A DNA stretch of 9,767 bases, from the NCBI GenBank assembly GCA_001412365.1, contig LKUE01000130.1:1-9767 (forward strand), read 5' to 3'. The first letter of the stretch is position 1. Each line of letters opens with the position of its first letter. The notes below the pieces were generated by a model, which was not told the DNA's origin, did no database searches, and worked only from the letters and a program-made list of their open reading frames with translations. The stretch is from Desulfuromonas sp. SDB. Lineage in GTDB: Bacteria > SDB-A. A program made the translations under genes and the position numbers. This document shows positions 1,026 to 9,767 of this stretch, piece by piece.

Positions 1026-3263
1026 CTAATCAACTATAAGAAATTTTCCCATATCAGTTAAATTAGCAGCTTCTAGTATGTAGAAGTACAAGCCTGGTTT
1101 CTCCGGTTTATAAGTTAACAGATGATCCCCGGAGGTAAATGATTGACGGGGGATGAGGTTGGATAGCTGTCTTCCCGAAATGTCATATATAGTTAAGGAA
1201 ATATCACCGGTTAGGGGCAAGGTAATATGAAAGGTAATTTGTTCTCTGGCCGGAGTAGTAAATGCGCAGGAAAATTGACTATTCTTGGTTAATTCTTCCT
1301 CAATTCCCAATGAAGTACAGATAAATGAATAATATAATGAAGGGGCGCTATCCGGATCAGTACTCTCATTTAATCCTCTGTCTCTGGCGTAGATATAGTA
1401 TTTAACCGTATCCGGATTCAGGGTAACCTGGGGGATCTCACCAGTATACCAGTTATCGCTGGAACAGGTTAATTCAGTTGAGTCCCAGACGGCATCTTCA
1501 GTTCTTTTATAAAACAATAGAGCAGTATCCAGGATAAGATTATCGGTTATCTTCGCATTGATTAGGTAGGGACCGGGATAAGTAGTATCATTTACAATGG
1601 TAGTTGATTCAATGACCGGGGGAGTTATATCACATAGCCCTTCCAGATAGACCAATCTCAAGGGCTCATCGGGGTCATCGGAATACACTTTCAGGGTTCC
1701 TGGATAGTGATATTGCACTAAAGGGTGAAAATATACTTCTAATGGCAAAATATTATTAGGCAGTATGGTATCTGGAAACCAGTGAAAGATATCTAAGGAA
1801 TATACATTATTGGTTGATATTACACTGTCTATTATCAGTTGCTTTTCTCCGGTGTTTTCTAGAACTAAATATTGCCAATAACCTGAATCACCTGGGGGAA
1901 TATTCCCAAAATCATGAAAAGTATCGTAAAGTAAAATGTTTTGAGACAATGCAGTTCTAAACTGATAGATCATACTATCCCGGCAACCTGCATATATTTC
2001 AATAAGTCCGTTATTGTTGCCATCTCCTACTGCTAAACCTTCAATCCAATCAGGGAGAGTGCCAATAATTATATAATCCCAGGAAGAACCGTTGAATTTA
2101 TGTTGATAAACTGAATAATTATCGTAAGCAGCATAAATTTCAATTTCACCATCGTTGTTACCATCTCCACAGGTAAGCTCATATATTTGATTGTTTATAT
2201 TTGTTGCAAACGGAGTGCTATTCCAGGTGCTGCCATCCCATTTATGCTGGGCGAGAAATCTGTAATAGGATTCGTAAACTTCAAATTCACCATCTTTATT
2301 GCCATCACAGACCACGATGTTGCTAACTCCCATTTGGTAATGATAAACTACGGTAGTTCGTTCCCAGTGATTTACTACCCATTTATATTGATACAGATAA
2401 CCGTTTTGCATATAACCCCCTCCACCTCCGTAAACTTCTAATTCCCCGTCGTTATTACCATCTCCTATTGCAATAGAGAGAAGGGGGTAATAACCGGGAC
2501 CTATATTCATGATATGCCATGAGTTACTAACATATTTATGCTGATATATAATGCTGTCCCGGACACAGTAAACTTCCTGCATTCCATCGTTGTTTCCGTC
2601 ACCTATTGCCATTTTCTTACAGCCGATCCCGATGCTGGTACTGTCCCAGGAACTTCCATTCCATTTATACTGGAACACGCTATCGGTATAAGCAATGTAA
2701 ACTTCTAATTCCCCGTCATTGTTACCGTCTCCGACTTTAATATCATTTATCCAACTAACCACCGAACCGACAATGGTAGTATCCCAGGAGGTTCCGTTGT
2801 ATTTGCATTGATAGATCTTGCCGCAACCAGTGCAACCGTATATTTCCATTTCTCCATCATTGTTCCCGTCCCCTACTGCGACTGCGCTAAGTGATTTATG
2901 GCAATTATTAACTGTACTGGTAGCGAAAAAATATGGTTGGGTAATTCTTTCATTAATGGTATAGCACATTTTCAGGGTATCCAAGTTTATTACCAGGTCA
3001 TAAATTCCAGTTATCGAACCGTTTAAATTGAAATCACAGGTTAGATAATTGTCATTAACCACGGTTATATTGGTGGCATTTATTTCAGGATTACCCGATC
3101 TGACTAGCTTCAAAGGGGAGGTGCTTGAATTGAAGTTACTCCCGAATATATGTGCATTTATCAAGGTATCATTGGTCCCTGATTGGGGCCAGATGTGGGT
3201 TGCAGAAGCACTCAACGCTGATGAGGTTAACAAAATAACAATAACCACTAATCTGAATTTCAT
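1026..3263 (-). CDS. Secreted T9SS protein with IPT/TIG-like domain, seven DGNNDG repeats (probable beta-propeller), HYDIN-like and Ig-like domains
   Basis: A 745-residue exported protein. The start at 3263 is well supported by AAGGAGG (3269-3275) five bases upstream. Residues 1-21 form a signal peptide ending ASA|T. Residues about 23-95 resemble an IPT/TIG immunoglobulin-like fold. Residues about 125-440 hold seven repeats of 44-52 residues built on V-G-D-G-N-N-D-G-E-x-E-[IV]-Y followed by [YF]Q.K[WYF].G.SWD; the first Asp of each is near residues 132, 178, 222, 268, 320, 367 and 414. The DxNxDGxxE loop is a calcium-binding geometry as in FG-GAP/VCBS repeats, and seven copies suggest a seven-bladed propeller. 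Residues about 445-545 (FGNIPPGDSGYWQYLVLENTG) resemble ASPM/SPD-2/Hydin or DUF1573 domains. Residues about 546-650 are Ig-like (VKYYIYARD). Residues about 665-745 are a T9SS type A sorting domain (LTIYDISGRQL, PGLYFYIL, GKFLIVD), implying outer-membrane export and surface anchoring or release. A sigma-54 promoter and enhancer-like site lie upstream. The biological role is unknown; adhesion or glycan binding is plausible. Confidence 0.9.
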   Translation of the reverse strand: MKFRLVVIVILLTSSALSASATHIWPQSGTNDTLINAHIFGSNFNSSTSPLKLVRSGNPEINATNITVVNDNYLTCDFNLNGSITGIYDLVINLDTLKMCYTINERITQPYFFATSTVNNCHKSLSAVAVGDGNNDGEMEIYGCTGCGKIYQCKYNGTSWDTTIVGSVVSWINDIKVGDGNNDGELEVYIAYTDSVFQYKWNGSSWDSTSIGIGCKKMAIGDGNNDGMQEVYCVRDSIIYQHKYVSNSWHIMNIGPGYYPLLSIAIGDGNNDGELEVYGGGGGYMQNGYLYQYKWVVNHWERTTVVYHYQMGVSNIVVCDGNKDGEFEVYESYYRFLAQHKWDGSTWNSTPFATNINNQIYELTCGDGNNDGEIEIYAAYDNYSVYQHKFNGSSWDYIIIGTLPDWIEGLAVGDGNNNGLIEIYAGCRDSMIYQFRTALSQNILLYDTFHDFGNIPPGDSGYWQYLVLENTGEKQLIIDSVISTNNVYSLDIFHWFPDTILPNNILPLEVYFHPLVQYHYPGTLKVYSDDPDEPLRLVYLEGLCDITPPVIESTTIVNDTTYPGPYLINAKITDNLILDTALLFYKRTEDAVWDSTELTCSSDNWYTGEIPQVTLNPDTVKYYIYARDRGLNESTDPDSAPSLYYSFICTSLGIEEELTKNSQFSCAFTTPAREQITFHITLPLTGDISLTIYDISGRQLSNLIPRQSFTSGDHLLTYKPEKPGLYFYILEAANLTDMGKFLIVD
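1944..2891 (-). repeat. Seven-fold coding repeat (about 140 bp) in the 745-residue secreted protein
   Basis: The seven DGNNDG units correspond to a degenerate tandem array of roughly 132-156 bp per unit. On the plus strand, motifs such as 'CCATCGTTGTTACCATCTCC', 'CCGTCGTTATTACCATCTCC' and 'CCGTCATTGTTACCGTCTCC' recur at about one per unit. Units differ enough at synonymous and loop positions to show that the array is old rather than freshly expanded. Unit 5 (GNKDGEFEVY) has lost the leading Gly of the motif (CDGNKDG), and unit 7 has GNNNG in place of GNNDG. Confidence 0.85.
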
Positions 3264-3326
3264 AAGTTCCTCCTTAAAATTCCCTTATAAGCACTTTTTA
3301 AAATATTGATAAACATAAAAGCATAA

Positions 3327-3342
3327 TGCAATTTATATGCCA
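3327..3342 (-). promoter_or_regulatory. Sigma-54 (RpoN) promoter for the 745-residue secreted protein
   Basis: The minus strand reads TGGCATATAAATTGCA, which matches every position of the sigma-54 consensus TGGCAYRNNNNTTGCW with correct -24/-12 spacing. Transcription should begin near 3316, giving a leader of about 50 bases before ATG 3263. The same box, with one change in the spacer, lies upstream of the other secreted-protein operon at 5298-5313. The flanks are also similar (ATGCAATTWATATGCCA on the plus strand). Confidence 0.85.
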
Positions 3343-3431
3343 GAATGATCACAAATGCCTATGCTACTTCTTTAAGTACATTTATGGAAAGAGTATTTGG
3401 CGGGGAATTGGTTGAATTTCTAAAATACAGA

Positions 3432-3456
3432 AATATTTCCGAAAATCGGAAATATT
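3432..3456. promoter_or_regulatory. Perfect palindrome, candidate enhancer site (UAS) for the NtrC-like regulator
   Basis: Arms AATATTTCCGA (3432-3442) and TCGGAAATATT (3446-3456) are exact inverted complements around AAA. The 17-bp core TTTCCGAAAATCGGAAA (3436-3452) matches the two cores at 5380-5396 and 5399-5415. Its centre is about 128 bp upstream of the predicted sigma-54 start near 3316, a standard enhancer distance for NtrC-family activators. It lies in a gene-free interval, which makes a regulatory role likelier than a terminator one; the AT-rich outer arms and 3-base loop are also poor terminator geometry. Confidence 0.72.
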
Positions 3457-3480
3457 AAATATTAATGAATTATATGTAAA

Positions 3481-3511
3481 TTATTTTATTTACTTTCAAG
3501 CAAATAAATAA
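3481..3511 (-). terminator. Weak AT-only stem downstream of the 475-residue protein gene
   Basis: TTATTTTATTT (3481-3491) can pair with AAATAAATAA (3502-3511) with one bulged base around a 10-base loop. It lies 35 bases past the stop at 3547 on the minus strand. It contains no G-C pairs, so stability is low. It is listed only because no better terminator is visible between this gene and the downstream enhancer-like palindrome. Confidence 0.25.
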
Positions 3512-3546
3512 GAATTAAAAGTTAATCATGTCAATGAGTGTTATTT

Positions 3547-4974
3547 CTATAGAACTAAAAATTTTCCAGAATAGTTATTCTGATCTATCTTCAGGTTGAA
3601 GAAATAAACGCCTTTATTTTCAATATTGAAGTTGATATTATGATTTCCTGCTGAATAAGATTGAGATAAAGGAGTAGAAATAAATCTTCCGGTAAGGTCA
3701 AAAATATTTAGCTTAACAGTACTGTTCTGGTATAAACAAAATTCCAGATTTACTGAATTATCGGTTAACTGATCAATATGAAATGATGTCTCAAAAGGAT
3801 AAGATAAAATAATTTCTTCTACTGCTACCCCATAGGCGTCAGTTTTAATTAAATATATGTCACTGTCATACATGGATATTTCTGAATTGCCAAGGATAAT
3901 ATATCCTCCATCAGTGGTTTGCTTTACAAATTTTCCATAATCATGATTAGCAATCCCAAAAGTTTTAGTCCATAGAGTATCTCCATTACTATTAGTTTTA
4001 ATTAACCATATATCAAAATAGTTGGGATAACCAGTCCAGCAATCACCGACAATGATATATCCTCCGTCAGTGGTTTGCTGAACTGAATAACCCCATTCAT
4101 CGAAAGAACTAGTTCCAATAGATTTTATCCACATAGTGTTACCATAATTATCGGTTTTAATTAACCAAATATCAGATTCAACTCCATTATTAATGGTATA
4201 GCCAACTATAATGTAACCCCCATCAGTAGTTTGCTGAACTGAAAAAGCTTTATCAGTCTGGGTGGTTCCAATAATTTTAGTCCAGGATGAATCCCCATCA
4301 TCATCAGTTTTAACTAGGATAATATCTGAATAATTACCTCCTCCAAAAGAATAGGTATAACCAACTACAATATAGCCCTCATCATCAGTCTGTTGAACAA
4401 ATAAACCTCGATCTACAGAAGAACCTCCAAAAGTCCTAGCCCATACACTGTCTCCGTTTTGATCAGTTTTTGCTAGAAAAATATCGTAGCTTCCAGCTCC
4501 GTATGATGAAGTTGAACCAGTGATAATAAAACCTCCATCAGTAGTTTGCTGAATACAGTTCCCTCGATCGAAATGTTGTCCTCCACCGGTATTAGACCAT
4601 AGAGTATCGCCATTACTGTTTGTTTTAATTAGGTAAATATCTTCTCCTCCAACTCCAAATGACTCGGTAGAACCAAGTACAATATATCCTCCATTTGTGG
4701 TTTGCTGAACTGAATAGCCAACATCAATTTCACTTCCCCCATAAGTCTTACTCCAGGTGATATTTCCCCAGTCATCAGTCTTAATTAGATATAAGTCTGA
4801 ACCACCAGCACCATAAGACTCTGTATATCCAGCAATAATATATCCTCCATCAGATGTTTGTTGGATTGAATTGCCCTCATCAGGCATATTTCCCCCATAA
4901 GTTCTGGTCCAACCGGATACAAGGTTAGGGAAAACAATGAACAATGCTATTGAAATTATTATTTGTTTTTTCAT
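3547..4974 (-). CDS. Secreted T9SS protein with seven QQTTDGGYI repeats (probable beta-propeller)
   Basis: A 475-residue exported protein. I place the start at ATG 4974, not 10 codons upstream at 5004, because AGAGGAGA (4979-4986) sits at the right distance and the signal peptide (MKKQIIISIALFIVFPNLVSG, cleavage near residue 20) then begins cleanly. Residues about 24-385 contain seven very regular repeats of 52-53 residues. Each has W.[KR][TS].G(G), a D..G..VQQTTDGGYI[IV].G segment, then SDI[YW]LIKTD..G. QQT falls near residues 38, 90, 142, 194, 247, 299 and 351 (KQT in the last). Residues about 400-475 form a T9SS type A sorting domain (LNIFDLTGRFI, KGVYFFNL, GKFLVL). The protein should cross the outer membrane via T9SS. 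It is the second gene after the 81-residue CxxC protein with a 43-base gap, both downstream of the sigma-54 promoter at 5298-5313. Similar repeat proteins are frequent but uncharacterised in FCB-type genomes; no catalytic residues are recognisable. Confidence 0.9.
   Translation of the reverse strand: MKKQIIISIALFIVFPNLVSGWTRTYGGNMPDEGNSIQQTSDGGYIIAGYTESYGAGGSDLYLIKTDDWGNITWSKTYGGSEIDVGYSVQQTTNGGYIVLGSTESFGVGGEDIYLIKTNSNGDTLWSNTGGGQHFDRGNCIQQTTDGGFIITGSTSSYGAGSYDIFLAKTDQNGDSVWARTFGGSSVDRGLFVQQTDDEGYIVVGYTYSFGGGNYSDIILVKTDDDGDSSWTKIIGTTQTDKAFSVQQTTDGGYIIVGYTINNGVESDIWLIKTDNYGNTMWIKSIGTSSFDEWGYSVQQTTDGGYIIVGDCWTGYPNYFDIWLIKTNSNGDTLWTKTFGIANHDYGKFVKQTTDGGYIILGNSEISMYDSDIYLIKTDAYGVAVEEIILSYPFETSFHIDQLTDNSVNLEFCLYQNSTVKLNIFDLTGRFISTPLSQSYSAGNHNINFNIENKGVYFFNLKIDQNNYSGKFLVL
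3820..4905 (-). repeat. Seven-fold coding repeat (156-bp period) in the 475-residue secreted protein
   Basis: The unit length is nearly constant at 52 codons. On the plus strand the segment CCTCCATCAGTGGTTTGCT at 3905-3923 recurs with few changes at 4061-4079, 4217-4235 and 4532-4550: the first three are exactly 156 bp apart, and the fourth fits two further units (one with an extra codon). DNA-level conservation is higher here than in the DGNNDG array of the neighbouring gene, suggesting more recent duplication or ongoing homogenisation. Confidence 0.85.
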
Positions 4975-4978
4975 TTTA

Positions 4979-4986
4979 TCTCCTCT
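4979..4986 (-). promoter_or_regulatory. Ribosome-binding site fixing the start at 4974
   Basis: The minus strand reads AGAGGAGA followed by TAAA and ATG. No comparable site precedes the in-frame ATG at 5004, so the shorter protein with a proper signal peptide is preferred. Confidence 0.8.
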
Positions 4987-5017
4987 AATTGATATTATTT
5001 TCAATTACTAACATTTG

Positions 5018-5263
5018 TTATGGAATGAATCGCTCAAATCTGGCTGCGCAGATGGGGCATAGCAGCCAATCGTTATTACCTGACATTACCTGCTGTACCC
5101 AGCGTTGTTCAGTTTCTGCTTTGGACATGCCCAGGGCAGTCCCGAAATTTAAAAGAATAGAATCTGGACGCAGCCCGGCTCCCACCGCTTTTTTTATCTG
5201 CTTTGACGAGTAGCGGATGGAATCCGCCCCTAGGGATACATTGCATAGATCACATACATTCAT
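5018..5263 (-). CDS. Small protein with two CxxC pairs, probable zinc-binding protein
   Basis: An 81-residue protein starting at ATG 5263. TAGGAGT (5268-5274) precedes this start. The longer in-frame start at 5302 lies upstream of the transcription start predicted from the sigma-54 box, so it cannot be the normal one. Cys4 and Cys7 (CDLC) at the N-terminus and Cys69 and Cys72 (CPIC) near the C-terminus would make a four-Cys zinc site closed over a mostly helical middle (QIKKAVGAGLRPDSILLNFG, then AETEQRWVQQVM). There is no signal peptide or membrane segment, so it should be cytoplasmic. I do not recognise a named family. It is the first gene of the sigma-54 operon that also encodes the 475-residue secreted protein. 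A role as an accessory or regulatory factor is possible but not shown. Confidence 0.82.
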   Translation of the reverse strand: MNVCDLCNVSLGADSIRYSSKQIKKAVGAGLRPDSILLNFGTALGMSKAETEQRWVQQVMSGNNDWLLCPICAARFERFIP

Positions 5264-5267
5264 AAGA

Positions 5268-5274
5268 ACTCCTA
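5268..5274 (-). promoter_or_regulatory. Ribosome-binding site fixing the start at 5263
   Basis: The minus strand reads TAGGAGT with four bases before ATG 5263. It selects the internal Met (MNVCDLC) over the upstream one at 5302, which lies inside the promoter region. Confidence 0.75.
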
Positions 5275-5297
5275 TTTTGTACTTATAAATAGATAAA

Positions 5298-5313
5298 TGC
5301 AATTAATATGCCA
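5298..5313 (-). promoter_or_regulatory. Sigma-54 (RpoN) promoter for the CxxC protein and 475-residue protein operon
   Basis: The minus strand reads TGGCATATTAATTGCA, a full match to TGGCAYRNNNNTTGCW. The predicted start near 5287 leaves a leader of about 24 bases before ATG 5263. It differs from the box at 3327-3342 by a single spacer base (TTAA versus TAAA). Finding two full matches, each in front of a co-oriented unit and next to a sigma-54 activator gene, makes a chance origin unlikely. Confidence 0.87.
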
Positions 5314-5379
5314 AAATTGTTAATAATATTAAAACAACCAATTTAAGGCAATTTATAAATTTGAGTAAATAGTGATCAA

Positions 5380-5396
5380 TTTCCATTTTTCGGAAA
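5380..5396. promoter_or_regulatory. Candidate enhancer site 1 for the NtrC-like regulator
   Basis: TTTCCATTTTTCGGAAA is an imperfect 17-bp inverted repeat with half sites TTTCC and GGAAA spaced exactly as in the palindrome at 3436-3452. Its centre is about 101 bp upstream of the predicted start near 5287. Confidence 0.7.
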
Positions 5397-5398
5397 TA

Positions 5399-5415
5399 TT
5401 TCTGTTTTTCGGAAA
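5399..5415. promoter_or_regulatory. Candidate enhancer site 2 for the NtrC-like regulator
   Basis: TTTCTGTTTTTCGGAAA has the same 17-bp layout, with one half-site mismatch (TTTCT). It is centred 19 bp from site 1 and about 120 bp upstream of the predicted start. It abuts the stop codon of the regulator gene (TAA at 5418-5416). Tandem sites about two helical turns apart favour cooperative binding of activator dimers. Confidence 0.68.
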
Positions 5416-6819
5416 TTATCTATGCTTGTAGAAATGGTGTTTAGCTATACCGGTAGCTTTAACTGCATCCAGAACTTTACCGTCAAATGATTTTAAGATA
5501 GATTTGACCAGGGATTCCTTAATATCTTCCAGATTGATTTTCTTTTTGATGATAATATCAGCTAATTCATCAATTAATTCCTGTTCATCTAGTTTAACTG
5601 AAGGTTGATCTGAATTTAAAAAATTAAAATCAGAATCAATTAATATTTGATTTGATCCGGAGACAATTATTGCTCTCATCACCGCATTTTCCAATTCTCG
5701 TATATTACCCGGCCAGGGATATTTTAATAGCAGGGAGAGAGTATTACTGTCTAATTCCTTGGGAGGAAGGTTCATCTCATTACAGAATTTATTTATATTG
5801 AAAGCTACCAACTCTTCAATATCTTCTTTTCTTTCCCTTAACGGTAAAAGATGAAGGGGATAACTGTTGATCCGGTAGTAAAGATCTTCTCTAAAATCAC
5901 CCTGTTTAACTGCTATCTCCAGATTCCGGTTGGTGGCAGAGATCAACCTGAAGTCCACATCAATAGTTTTATTACTGCCCAACCGGGAAAATTTCTTTTC
6001 CTGAAGAACATTCAGCAGCTTGATCTGAAGATTGATATTCATTTCCCCTATTTCATCCAGAAATAAAGTTCCCTGATCAGCCAGTTCAATTTTACCGGGT
6101 TTGGAGTTAACTGCTCCCGTAAATGCTCCTTTCTCATATCCGAACAATTCACTTTCCAGCAAATCCTGGGGGATGGCTGCACAGTTGATTTTGATGAATG
6201 GTTTTTCTTTTCGGGGACCGGAGGAGTGAATTAATCTGGCAACTACCTCCTTGCCTGTACCGGTTTCGCCGGTTATCAGAACATTTACGGATAATCCGGA
6301 TATTTTCAGAACATCCTCAAATATTTTATTTAATCCTTTTTTAAGCCCGATGATCTTGGTGTTCTGTTCGAAGAGCCTGTGCTTTAATTCCTGGTTCTCC
6401 ATATCTAATAATTTCAGATAGTCTGCGGTTTGTTTCTTCTTAGAACACTCCGCAATAATTAGATCCAAGGTTTGCTGAAGTTCTGTTAAATCAATTGGCT
6501 TTTCAATGAAATGATTTACCAGGCCTTCATTTAGTACCTTTTCCAGTAGCTGTTTGTCCCCGTATGCGGTAAATAAAATCCCATATCCATAATTATTTTT
6601 TTCTTTTGCGGCCAGTAAAAGATCAATTCCGGTAACTCTGGGCATTTTGTAATCGGCAATAATTATGTCAAAATAATCTTTTTCCAATTCATGTAGAGCT
6701 TTTTGGGGATCAGAAAAGAAATCAATATTGTACTCTTGGAAATATTCCTTTAAATCTTCAATTAAGCTGGATTCATCATCTACAAACATGATTTTCAAAT
6801 TATGTTCAGAAATTTCCAT
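5416..6819 (-). CDS. NtrC-family sigma-54 dependent response regulator
   Basis: A 467-residue transcriptional activator. Residues 8-125 are a receiver domain with acidic D14/D15, phosphoacceptor D56 (IIIADYKMP), T84 and K107 (EKPID). Residues about 130-160 look like a coiled-coil linker. Residues about 160-390 are the AAA+ sigma-54 activation domain: Walker A GETGTGKE (184-191), ELFGYEKGAFTGA with the sigma-54 contacting GAFTGA loop (231-236), Walker B TLFLDEIGEM, arginine-finger region FREDLYYRI, and sensor II WPGNIREL (369-376). The C-terminus is a Fis-type HTH (residues about 434-467; KVLDAVKATGIAKHHFYKHR) that stops right after the recognition helix, without the usual few extra residues. 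All key residues are intact, so it should hydrolyse ATP and open sigma-54 promoters. ATG 6819 is preceded by AAAAGGAAA inside the end of the kinase gene; the kinase stop is one base away, so the pair is translationally linked. Likely targets are the two sigma-54 promoters downstream on the same strand. Confidence 0.95.
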   Translation of the reverse strand: MEISEHNLKIMFVDDESSLIEDLKEYFQEYNIDFFSDPQKALHELEKDYFDIIIADYKMPRVTGIDLLLAAKEKNNYGYGILFTAYGDKQLLEKVLNEGLVNHFIEKPIDLTELQQTLDLIIAECSKKKQTADYLKLLDMENQELKHRLFEQNTKIIGLKKGLNKIFEDVLKISGLSVNVLITGETGTGKEVVARLIHSSGPRKEKPFIKINCAAIPQDLLESELFGYEKGAFTGAVNSKPGKIELADQGTLFLDEIGEMNINLQIKLLNVLQEKKFSRLGSNKTIDVDFRLISATNRNLEIAVKQGDFREDLYYRINSYPLHLLPLRERKEDIEELVAFNINKFCNEMNLPPKELDSNTLSLLLKYPWPGNIRELENAVMRAIIVSGSNQILIDSDFNFLNSDQPSVKLDEQELIDELADIIIKKKINLEDIKESLVKSILKSFDGKVLDAVKATGIAKHHFYKHR

Positions 6820-6820
6820 G

Positions 6821-9472
6821 TTATTTCCTTTTCATGGTTATAGCAAATTCACTGCCCTTGTTTTCTTCTGAATTCACTGAAATATTCCAACCCATTTTCA
6901 ATACTAGATTTTTTACAATATAAAGACCAAGGCCAGTTCCTTCACCTACCTCTTTCGAGGTGTAAAAAGCATCAAAGATATATTTCAACTCTTCCCGGGA
7001 CATTCCTTTCCCATTGTCTTTGACAATGATAACAGGATCATATTCGGTTTTAAATGCCTTTATTTTAATTTCTCCTTGTTCATCAACTGCATCTAAGGCA
7101 TTGAGAATAAGGTTGGATAAGATTTGGATTAGTGCATCATAATTTGCATATATACTGAGATCTTTCTCAATATCAATAGAAAATATTACCTTCTTATCTT
7201 TGTAATCCTCAAATAATTTAATTATCGGGGGAATGAGTTTTTTTAAATTTAAATTTGTTTTCTTAATTATTTCCTGATAGTAAAGGGACTTAAGGTTTTT
7301 TATGATATTGGTGATTCTATCCAGATTATATTTAATCCGTTCAATATAAGGTTGAGTTTTTTCCCTGGTGGTTGAATCTAGGTTGTTTAGATATTTTTTT
7401 AAGTTTTCCAACGGAGCACTAATGGATATCAGGGGATTAATTAATTCATGGGATATTCCCCCCATCAATTTTCCAAAGGTAAAATATTTGTTTTGTTCGA
7501 ACAGGGAATTTTTCATTTTCTGAAGACGGAGTAGAGCGTCAATCCTGGTCATCAATTCATCAGCGGAAAATGGTTTGTAGATGAAATCTACTGCTCCCAG
7601 AGATATTCCTTTCAATTTTTCCTTATCCCCTGTTTTGGCGGTCAGAAAGATAAAGGGTATATCCTGATATATATCCCGATTCACCATGTTTTCATAAAAT
7701 TGATAACCATCCATTTCATCCATCATAATATCGGACAGAATCAGGTTAGGTAAGGGGATAGAGGTTATTTTATCTAAAGCGATCTGACCATTTTCAGCAG
7801 TGAAAACATTGTATTTTTTGGATAATTTATACTGGAGGAATTTCAGCAAGTTCTTATTGTCTTCTACTACTAGTATATTTTCCCGCTGGGATAAATATTT
7901 TTCTTGATGCAATTCCAACTCGAATTGAAAGTTTTCCGGAGTGGAAACTTCAAAATCAGTTTGAATATTTTCAGATCCATCTGGTATATATCGGGGTAAG
8001 GTAAGGGTAAATTCACTGCCCTGATCCTTCTCGCTTTTTAAGTTAATGGTTCCATCTAATGATTTAACTATTTCCGAGGTGATGTAAAGACCCATCCCGA
8101 TACCCTGGATGTTCTGCTTGGCGTGAGAAATCTGGTAAAATGGTGAAAATATATGTTTCTGCTGCTGATCGGAAATCCCCATTCCAGAATCTTTTACTTT
8201 TAGAATTATAAAGCTGTGATCATTGTCTAAGAAAACATCAATTGTGCCCTGGGTTGTATATTTTATAGCATTATCCAGAAGATTGTTAATGATCCGGTCA
8301 AAGGCAAAAGGATCTGCCTTTATGTATAGGTCAATGGCTAAGTTACTGATTAGGTTGATGTTTTTTCTATGAGCATAGCTTCTAAATACCTTTAACTTGT
8401 CTTTTACTATTTCGGAGATGTTTACTACTTGGTCATGATTGTAAAATATCTGACCTCGCTCCAGTTTTTCCGCATCCAGAAAATTTACCATATCCCTTAA
8501 CAGTTTATTGAGGTTCTGTTGAATAACCTTCAACTCTTCAGAAGGTGGAGACTTACTCATGTACTCAGTTAAATAGTTCTGAATAATGGTTAGAGGAGTT
8601 TTGGTTTCATGAGCAAGATTAATGAATAAATTGGTTTTCTGCTCACTGGCTTTTTCAATTTCAAGTTTCGCTTTTTCCAGTTCCCGGGTTCTTTGGTTAA
8701 CTTTTTTTTCAAGATTATCTCTTAAATCTATTAAGTGGTAATGTTCCTGGTTGAAATGGGAAGTTAGGGCATAAGCGGAAAATAAAGCCATGGCTAGACA
8801 ACCGATGTTTACCATAAGGGATTGTAGGAAATATGAAAAAACATTAATAATCCAAATGGTTTGGATTATCATTCCTAAATAGAAAAAGACAATTCCAAAA
8901 AATATCAGTAATTTCCATTTCTGCTTATACCTTCTTCCCTTTTTGTTGAAAAAAACCTGAATTATTCTGACTGCAATGTAGATACTCCAGGGAACGGGTA
9001 TAACCGTATTTATTATCTCAGGAATATTCCAGTTTTTTATTATTATGTAGAGGATTAAACCCATTATATAGGGAGTTAGGATACATAAGATATAGCCCCA
9101 GATTAGTTGATTTTTTAATGTCTGTAGTTCTAGAGCATAGTATATGAAATAAAGAAAACTGAAAATTAAAAATACACTGGTTAAGCCTTCTAAGGTAATT
9201 CTGTAAACTAAAGGTACAATCTGATAGTGAGGATCGAATTCAGGGATGAGCATTTTTTGGATGACGTATACCATAAATGAAAATATCAAAATAGCGTAGT
9301 GCAAATTATTCTTATCTTCAGGTCTGCCCCAGTAAACCAATAGATGGTAAATTGCCAGGGTGGAGTAGATCCCCAAGAATATAAATGCTATATATATGGG
9401 AACTAATTCAGAAGTATGAAGGGTTTTAGGGGCAAATGCGGAGTTTTGAATTATTAGTTTTAATAATAACAA
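6821..9472 (-). CDS. Membrane hybrid histidine kinase with kinase-receiver-kinase architecture
   Basis: An 883-residue sensor kinase. The start is TTG 9472, weakly supported by TGGAA just upstream; an in-frame stop immediately before it rules out a longer protein, and the next Met lies inside a membrane helix. Residues about 25-240 carry about seven hydrophobic helices, resembling the 7TM part of 7TMR-DISM sensors but without the large periplasmic domain. Residues about 245-280 are a coiled coil. The first kinase core has H288 (NLAHETKTPL), N-box NNLLDNAIKY (396-405), DSGMG and GIGMGLYI (457-464). A receiver at 531-650 has E537/D538, phosphoacceptor D581 (LILSDIMMD), T611 and K633. The second, NtrB-like core has H675 (GGISHELINPL), N791 (LILNALDAV), DNGKG and GTGLGLYI (845-852). 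Both cores look catalytically complete. The second is the likely donor to the NtrC-type regulator encoded one base downstream; the first may phosphorylate the internal receiver to control it. The signal is unknown. Confidence 0.93.
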   Translation of the reverse strand: MLLLKLIIQNSAFAPKTLHTSELVPIYIAFIFLGIYSTLAIYHLLVYWGRPEDKNNLHYAILIFSFMVYVIQKMLIPEFDPHYQIVPLVYRITLEGLTSVFLIFSFLYFIYYALELQTLKNQLIWGYILCILTPYIMGLILYIIIKNWNIPEIINTVIPVPWSIYIAVRIIQVFFNKKGRRYKQKWKLLIFFGIVFFYLGMIIQTIWIINVFSYFLQSLMVNIGCLAMALFSAYALTSHFNQEHYHLIDLRDNLEKKVNQRTRELEKAKLEIEKASEQKTNLFINLAHETKTPLTIIQNYLTEYMSKSPPSEELKVIQQNLNKLLRDMVNFLDAEKLERGQIFYNHDQVVNISEIVKDKLKVFRSYAHRKNINLISNLAIDLYIKADPFAFDRIINNLLDNAIKYTTQGTIDVFLDNDHSFIILKVKDSGMGISDQQQKHIFSPFYQISHAKQNIQGIGMGLYITSEIVKSLDGTINLKSEKDQGSEFTLTLPRYIPDGSENIQTDFEVSTPENFQFELELHQEKYLSQRENILVVEDNKNLLKFLQYKLSKKYNVFTAENGQIALDKITSIPLPNLILSDIMMDEMDGYQFYENMVNRDIYQDIPFIFLTAKTGDKEKLKGISLGAVDFIYKPFSADELMTRIDALLRLQKMKNSLFEQNKYFTFGKLMGGISHELINPLISISAPLENLKKYLNNLDSTTREKTQPYIERIKYNLDRITNIIKNLKSLYYQEIIKKTNLNLKKLIPPIIKLFEDYKDKKVIFSIDIEKDLSIYANYDALIQILSNLILNALDAVDEQGEIKIKAFKTEYDPVIIVKDNGKGMSREELKYIFDAFYTSKEVGEGTGLGLYIVKNLVLKMGWNISVNSEENKGSEFAITMKRK

Positions 9473-9605: not shown

Positions 9606-9655
9606 ATTGACAGGATGCCCTACCAATACCCAACTACTAAACCACAGATGAACAC
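9606..9655 (+). repeat. Imperfect direct repeat, copy A (about 50 bp)
   Basis: It starts ATTGACAGGATGC and ends ACCACAGATGAACAC. It aligns with 9720-9767 with a few substitutions and single-base gaps, at an offset of 112-114 bp. It includes the second ACCACAGATGAACAC copy. Confidence 0.65.
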
Positions 9656-9719
9656 AGAGCCCAACCCAGCACTTCCTCACCCAACACAGAGTCCACCGCC
9701 CGTCCCCGGGAAAAATACT

Positions 9720-9767
9720 ATTGACATGATGCTTCCCAATTACCATTACAAAACCACAGATGAACAC
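9720..9767 (+). repeat. Imperfect direct repeat, copy B (about 48 bp, reaches window edge)
   Basis: It starts ATTGACATGATGC and ends AAACCACAGATGAACAC, matching copy A. Because it runs to the last base, the array probably continues outside the window. Confidence 0.62.

Follow-up and report, generated by a model that had tools for sequence, protein, structure and literature searches.

The 9,767-nucleotide stretch of DNA analysed here (hereafter the window), the complete contig C130 of a 3.14-Mb genome of 98.7% completeness from an uncultured bacterium, very probably encodes a self-contained sigma-54 circuit, in which a kinase would govern a regulator that acts, through a doublet of inverted repeats and sigma-54, on the genes for a CxxC protein and for two proteins exported by type IX secretion (T9SS). 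Three observations support this wiring: the doublet is unique to these two units in the genome, the regulator, the doublet and the CxxC gene are conserved together in a second genus, and none of the other credible sigma-54 promoters has the doublet. Along the minus strand, a hybrid kinase comes first, followed by an NtrC-type regulator, unit A and unit B, with the following features:

6821-9472, minus strand: hybrid sensor histidine kinase with a 7TMR-DISM membrane domain, HisKA-HATPase, receiver and a second HisKA-HATPase (Pfam)
5416-6819, minus strand: NtrC-type response regulator and sigma-54 activator, with receiver, AAA+ domain with GAFTGA, and a putative C-terminal Fis-like helix-turn-helix
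5380-5415, unit A: tandem doublet of 17-bp inverted repeats, TTTCCGAAAAACAGAAA and TTTCCGAAAAATGGAAA, 19-bp period; probable activator binding sites
5298-5313, unit A, minus strand: sigma-54 promoter TGGCATATTAATTGCA, match to TGGCAYN5TTGCW
5018-5260, unit A, minus strand: first gene, encoding a CxxC...CxxC protein of 80 aa without signal peptide
3547-4974, unit A, minus strand: 475-aa T9SS type A cargo protein with seven delta-60-like repeats of ~52 aa; TIGR04183, 27.2 bits
3417-3452, unit B: tandem doublet with the inverted repeat of unit A again, TTTCCGATTTTCGGAAA and TTTCTGTATTTTAGAAA, 19-bp period
3327-3342, unit B, minus strand: sigma-54 promoter TGGCATATAAATTGCA, match to TGGCAYN5TTGCW
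1026-3263, unit B, minus strand: 745-aa T9SS type A cargo protein with seven FG-GAP-like repeats (DGNNDGExE[IV]Y); PF13517; TIGR04183, 26.9 bits

A sequence-only reading of the window had placed a hybrid kinase and a GAFTGA-containing NtrC-type regulator upstream of two minus-strand units, each with a full-consensus sigma-54 promoter, and both statements are borne out, the former by Pfam and the GAFTGA motif. The 17-bp repeat that it described is also real, but both units carry two copies rather than one or two, and these lie 120-155 bp (unit A) and 154-189 bp (unit B) upstream of the start codon instead of 100-130 bp; moreover, the span given for the circuit (3316-9472) had left out the target gene of the second unit. 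Adjoining the end of unit B, the plus strand encodes a membrane protein and a SHOCT-like DUF2089-C protein (61-942), which are outside the circuit. At its other end (9635-9767), the contig terminates in two copies of TACTAAACCACAGATGAACAC, possibly a dispersed repeat that interrupted assembly. An Rfam search gave no match.

The regulator shows the receiver and the AAA+ sigma-54 interaction domain with a GAFTGA loop that mark the NtrC family (PF00072, 62 bits; PF00158, 235 bits), and is predicted to bind DNA and to activate sigma-54 at the expense of ATP. Its C-terminus aligns to the helix-turn-helix of the genome's other activators, and Pfam HTH_8 gives no match to it at an E-value of 10. A scan of GTDB r220 with this protein revealed no ortholog: near-full-length matches are about 32-42% identical, and the top identities, reaching 53%, stem from partial AAA+ matches. 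The kinase could act on other regulators.

The consensus TGGCAYN5TTGCW, expected 0.01 times in shuffles of the window, occurs there twice. Both promoters combine the -24 GG with the -12 GC element, and rpoN, on whose presence the sequence-only reading had made its proposal depend, is encoded in this genome and found in all four genomes of the phylum examined. The doublet ends 66 bp (unit A) or 74 bp (unit B) ahead of the -24 element, TTTCTGTATTTTAGAAA being a weaker second copy in unit B. Classical NtrC sites likewise have a 17-bp dyad geometry. At zero to two mismatches, the doublet pattern is found at two places in the 3.14-Mb genome, namely both window units and each time perfectly, so the random scatter that would have spoken against regulation is not seen; three further places appear at three mismatches (reversed control, 0), and the expectation with up to three mismatches is 0.00 in 200 shuffles of the window. 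A single repeat with one mismatch matches 26 genome places versus 3 in the control, and therefore the doublet alone discriminates; the looser single-repeat pattern was dropped as a marker for being too unspecific.

Both cargo proteins exceed the curated cut-off of TIGR04183 (Por_Secre_tail, 23 bits), and the genome encodes the T9SS translocon SprA (TIGR04189, 461.9 bits over the frame against a cut-off of 200), which is found in 4/4 genomes of the phylum examined. The 475-aa protein is probably a seven-bladed beta-propeller, its structure model being all-beta at low confidence (pLDDT 57), and the 745-aa protein is probably a beta-propeller as well; both would be located at the cell surface. 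As about 130 genes of this genome carry a T9SS tail, the circuit would select two cargo proteins rather than enable export. Hence, of the earlier proposal that the regulator switches on export of the two propeller-like proteins and the CxxC protein, its action on the sites is supported, while the effect on cargo would reduce to the synthesis of two proteins among about 130.

Across the genome, TGGCAYN5TTGCW has 16 matches (reversed control, 0). We judged 11 of them credible, as a plausible gene starts no more than about 105 bp away, a choice made by hand with the genes already in view; the remaining five fall within or against what look like coding frames. The TTTC-type doublet is present at the two window promoters only, the other nine credible promoters being without it, and the upstream regions examined at these contain different inverted repeats or none. 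One such repeat, TTGCAATATGCAA / TTGCAAAATGCGA, is common to contig C14 and the pilA-like contig C257 and also precedes pilA in a second genome of the phylum, G003. It lies upstream of sigma-54 promoters (C14 ~3924, C257 ~1350, G003 ~1501), with pilA-like genes and one T9SS beta-propeller gene behind it, which suggests a joint pilin and surface-protein regulon. Given that the repeat of C14 and C257 is distinct from the window doublet, different activators probably read different repeats.

For the phylum, the comparison set comprised four genomes from one family and two genera. In G001, which belongs to the other genus, contig C13 carries kinase, regulator, doublet, promoter-like element and CxxC gene in the same order as the window. 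The last 572 aa of the kinase are present there and 70% identical over 568 aa, the regulator is 77% identical, and the CxxC protein, in the same position, 58%, whereas other activators of these genomes reach at most 51% identity to the regulator over partial matches. The end of the putative recognition helix (AKHHFYKHR / AKHHFYKYR) is nearly identical in both genera and unlike that of other activators. The G001 doublet occurs once, between the regulator and CxxC genes, departing from the pattern at two positions and keeping the 19-bp period; only 24 of its 36 letters are identical between the genera, and what is conserved is the dyad arrangement, together with the period and the spacing from the promoter. 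It lies 73 bp from the promoter-like TGGCATGGATATTGAT, whose function is less certain because it carries GA, not GC, as the -12 dinucleotide. The sole full-consensus sigma-54 match in this gap is on the opposite strand and was set aside, as its transcript would run back across the doublet and enter the regulator gene. The regulator ortholog and the CxxC gene are both missing from the two remaining genomes, G002 and G003. The conserved synteny that the sequence-only reading had named as support is seen in G001. Conservation rests on two genomes, the sole carriers among the four examined.

For the CxxC protein, searches of plasmids, viral contigs, Pfam, NCBIfam and PADLOC gave no relatives, nor did 94 genomes outside the family, and PDB sequence and fold matches were discarded as noise. 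Its predicted structure (pLDDT 87) is a small fold, with the first CxxC ahead of a strand and the second opening the last helix. This suggests a resemblance to a treble clef with a helical insert, possibly zinc-binding, a reading made from the secondary structure with no fold match behind it.

The circuit might serve mainly the CxxC protein, with the downstream T9SS genes as replaceable passengers whose control is incidental, since the CxxC gene is the conserved first gene and the sole target seen in both genera, while G001 yields no second doublet with up to two mismatches, and the beginning of its next gene looks unlike the 475-aa protein. Yet the G001 contig stops at that gene, unit B has a doublet and promoter of its own that would directly drive a T9SS gene, and three other loci of the genome also have T9SS genes behind sigma-54 promoters, so we regard a circuit centred on the CxxC protein as rather unlikely. 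It is still less probable that another sigma-54 activator binds the doublets and that the adjacent kinase-regulator pair acts elsewhere: the genome holds ten NtrC-type matches, and adjacency by itself is no proof, but the doublet lies beside this regulator only in both genera, regulator and CxxC gene are either both present or both absent in each of the four genomes, and the genome's other sigma-54 promoters are devoid of the motif. As far as sequence reaches, no other regulator is favoured for these sites, a point on which the earlier proposal had been open to refutation. That the repeats are instead terminators or processing hairpins of the upstream genes, the promoters using distant sites, is very improbable, for although one of the repeats of unit B resembles a terminator hairpin by score (11 pairs and a T-rich tail, which we count against our main reading) and both doublets sit 3' of a gene, the unit A doublet has no terminator score, and protein binding sites would fit the two copies at a fixed 19-bp period, their nearly invariant spacing from the promoter and the dyad pattern kept in G001.

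The circuit that we favour, kinase to regulator to doublet to sigma-54, would then operate as follows. The membrane hybrid kinase would sense a cue and control, by phosphotransfer, the phosphorylation of the adjacent NtrC-type regulator, which, once activated, would bind the two neighbouring 17-bp palindromes 66-74 bp upstream of the -24/-12 promoters, form an AAA+ ring and loop to the sigma-54 RNA polymerase. This would drive one operon for the CxxC protein and the 475-aa seven-repeat T9SS protein, and a second for the 745-aa seven-repeat FG-GAP T9SS protein, both cargo products then being exported by the T9SS that serves many further proteins.

T9SS-tail genes are found in five of the 11 credible sigma-54 units (both window units, C14, C114:4442 and C208:3243), which has a probability of ~0.003 at an assumed 10% per unit, a rough figure taken from 130 tail hits with the gene total uncounted. 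Contig C114 (792-10314) encodes a 1716-aa activator, two sigma-54 promoters, a PqqD-like protein of 110 aa and a 1201-aa T9SS protein of the C25 peptidase family, and contig C208 (1107-8599) a 1717-aa activator, a sigma-54 promoter, a 525-aa S74-containing secreted protein and a 174-aa T9SS protein. Both giant activators combine protein kinase, AAA, TPR, GAF, sigma-54 activator and Fis helix-turn-helix domains and have their targets on the same strand; they resemble one another and differ in class from the window regulator. An activator followed by sigma-54-driven T9SS genes is thus also found at C114 and C208, which makes the window circuit one of at least three such cassettes. A third giant kinase-type sigma-54 activator, on C353 (1-4958), is interrupted by the contig end. 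In G002, contig C127 (1501-3016) carries a sigma-54 promoter with a small pseudopilin-like gene and the gene for a secreted FG-GAP-like protein behind it. It is conceivable, though rather unlikely, that in this deep lineage sigma-54 constitutes a general layer of T9SS cargo selection built from exchangeable cassettes, each with an activator of differing sensory class, T9SS genes under sigma-54 control and often also a small protein containing Cys. Such cassettes would choose among about 130 surface proteins, and the CxxC protein would be a dedicated, zinc-binding partner of its circuit, acting for example in feedback inhibition or cargo handling.

The type of wiring is already known. The PrsK/PrsR system (TIGR02916/TIGR02915) likewise pairs a membrane histidine kinase with an NtrC-like regulator and a motif of 17-nt scale ahead of -24/-12 promoters, and its targets too are exported and bear a C-terminal sorting domain; in that system, associated with PEP-CTERM genes, the 17-nt motif is sometimes repeated and the spacer to the -24/-12 element averages 62.8 nt (Haft et al. 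2006, PMC1569441), and RpoN dependence has been demonstrated for a PEP-CTERM gene (PMC9850573). In contrast, the window encodes different kinase and regulator families, whose scores stay far under the cut-offs that would make them PrsK (TIGR02916, 168 versus 300 bits) or PrsR (TIGR02915, 322.3 versus 502.6 bits). It also has a different motif, belongs to T9SS rather than PEP-CTERM/EpsH sorting, and comprises two operons adjoining the regulator, where PrsK/PrsR has a dispersed regulon. In Porphyromonas gingivalis, PorY-PorX-SigP also ties two-component control to type IX secretion, through an ECF sigma factor acting on T9SS machinery genes (PMC4800418); the window regulator has no such ECF output, but a sigma-54 AAA+ domain, with -24/-12 promoters and cargo genes as its targets. 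Activator genes co-localised with sigma-54 operons behind palindromic sites are known from Desulfovibrio vulgaris (PMC4641369), where the targets cited are metabolic (pyruvate formate-lyase), unlike the T9SS cargo here. More broadly, sigma-54 has been described as a controller of the bacterial exterior tied to surface-structure genes, and the list in the abstract of that paper (exopolysaccharide, flagella, lipids, LPS, lipoproteins and peptidoglycan) does not name T9SS cargo (Francke et al. 2011, PMC3162934). The sequence-only reading had known of no described system of this kind, which does not hold for the design, given PrsK/PrsR, and is so far borne out for T9SS cargo: in the portions of the open-access literature covered by our search, we found no paper linking sigma-54 to T9SS cargo and no description of this use of the wiring.

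The sequence evidence points to a tight, cue-dependent sigma-54 control of single T9SS cargo operons. Where PorXY-SigP acts on the machinery through an ECF factor, control here would be exerted at the level of the cargo, in a phylum of which four genomes were examined, and the result supplies a testable pair of motif and promoter. It further suggests that sigma-54 control arose separately for PEP-CTERM and T9SS sorted exports.
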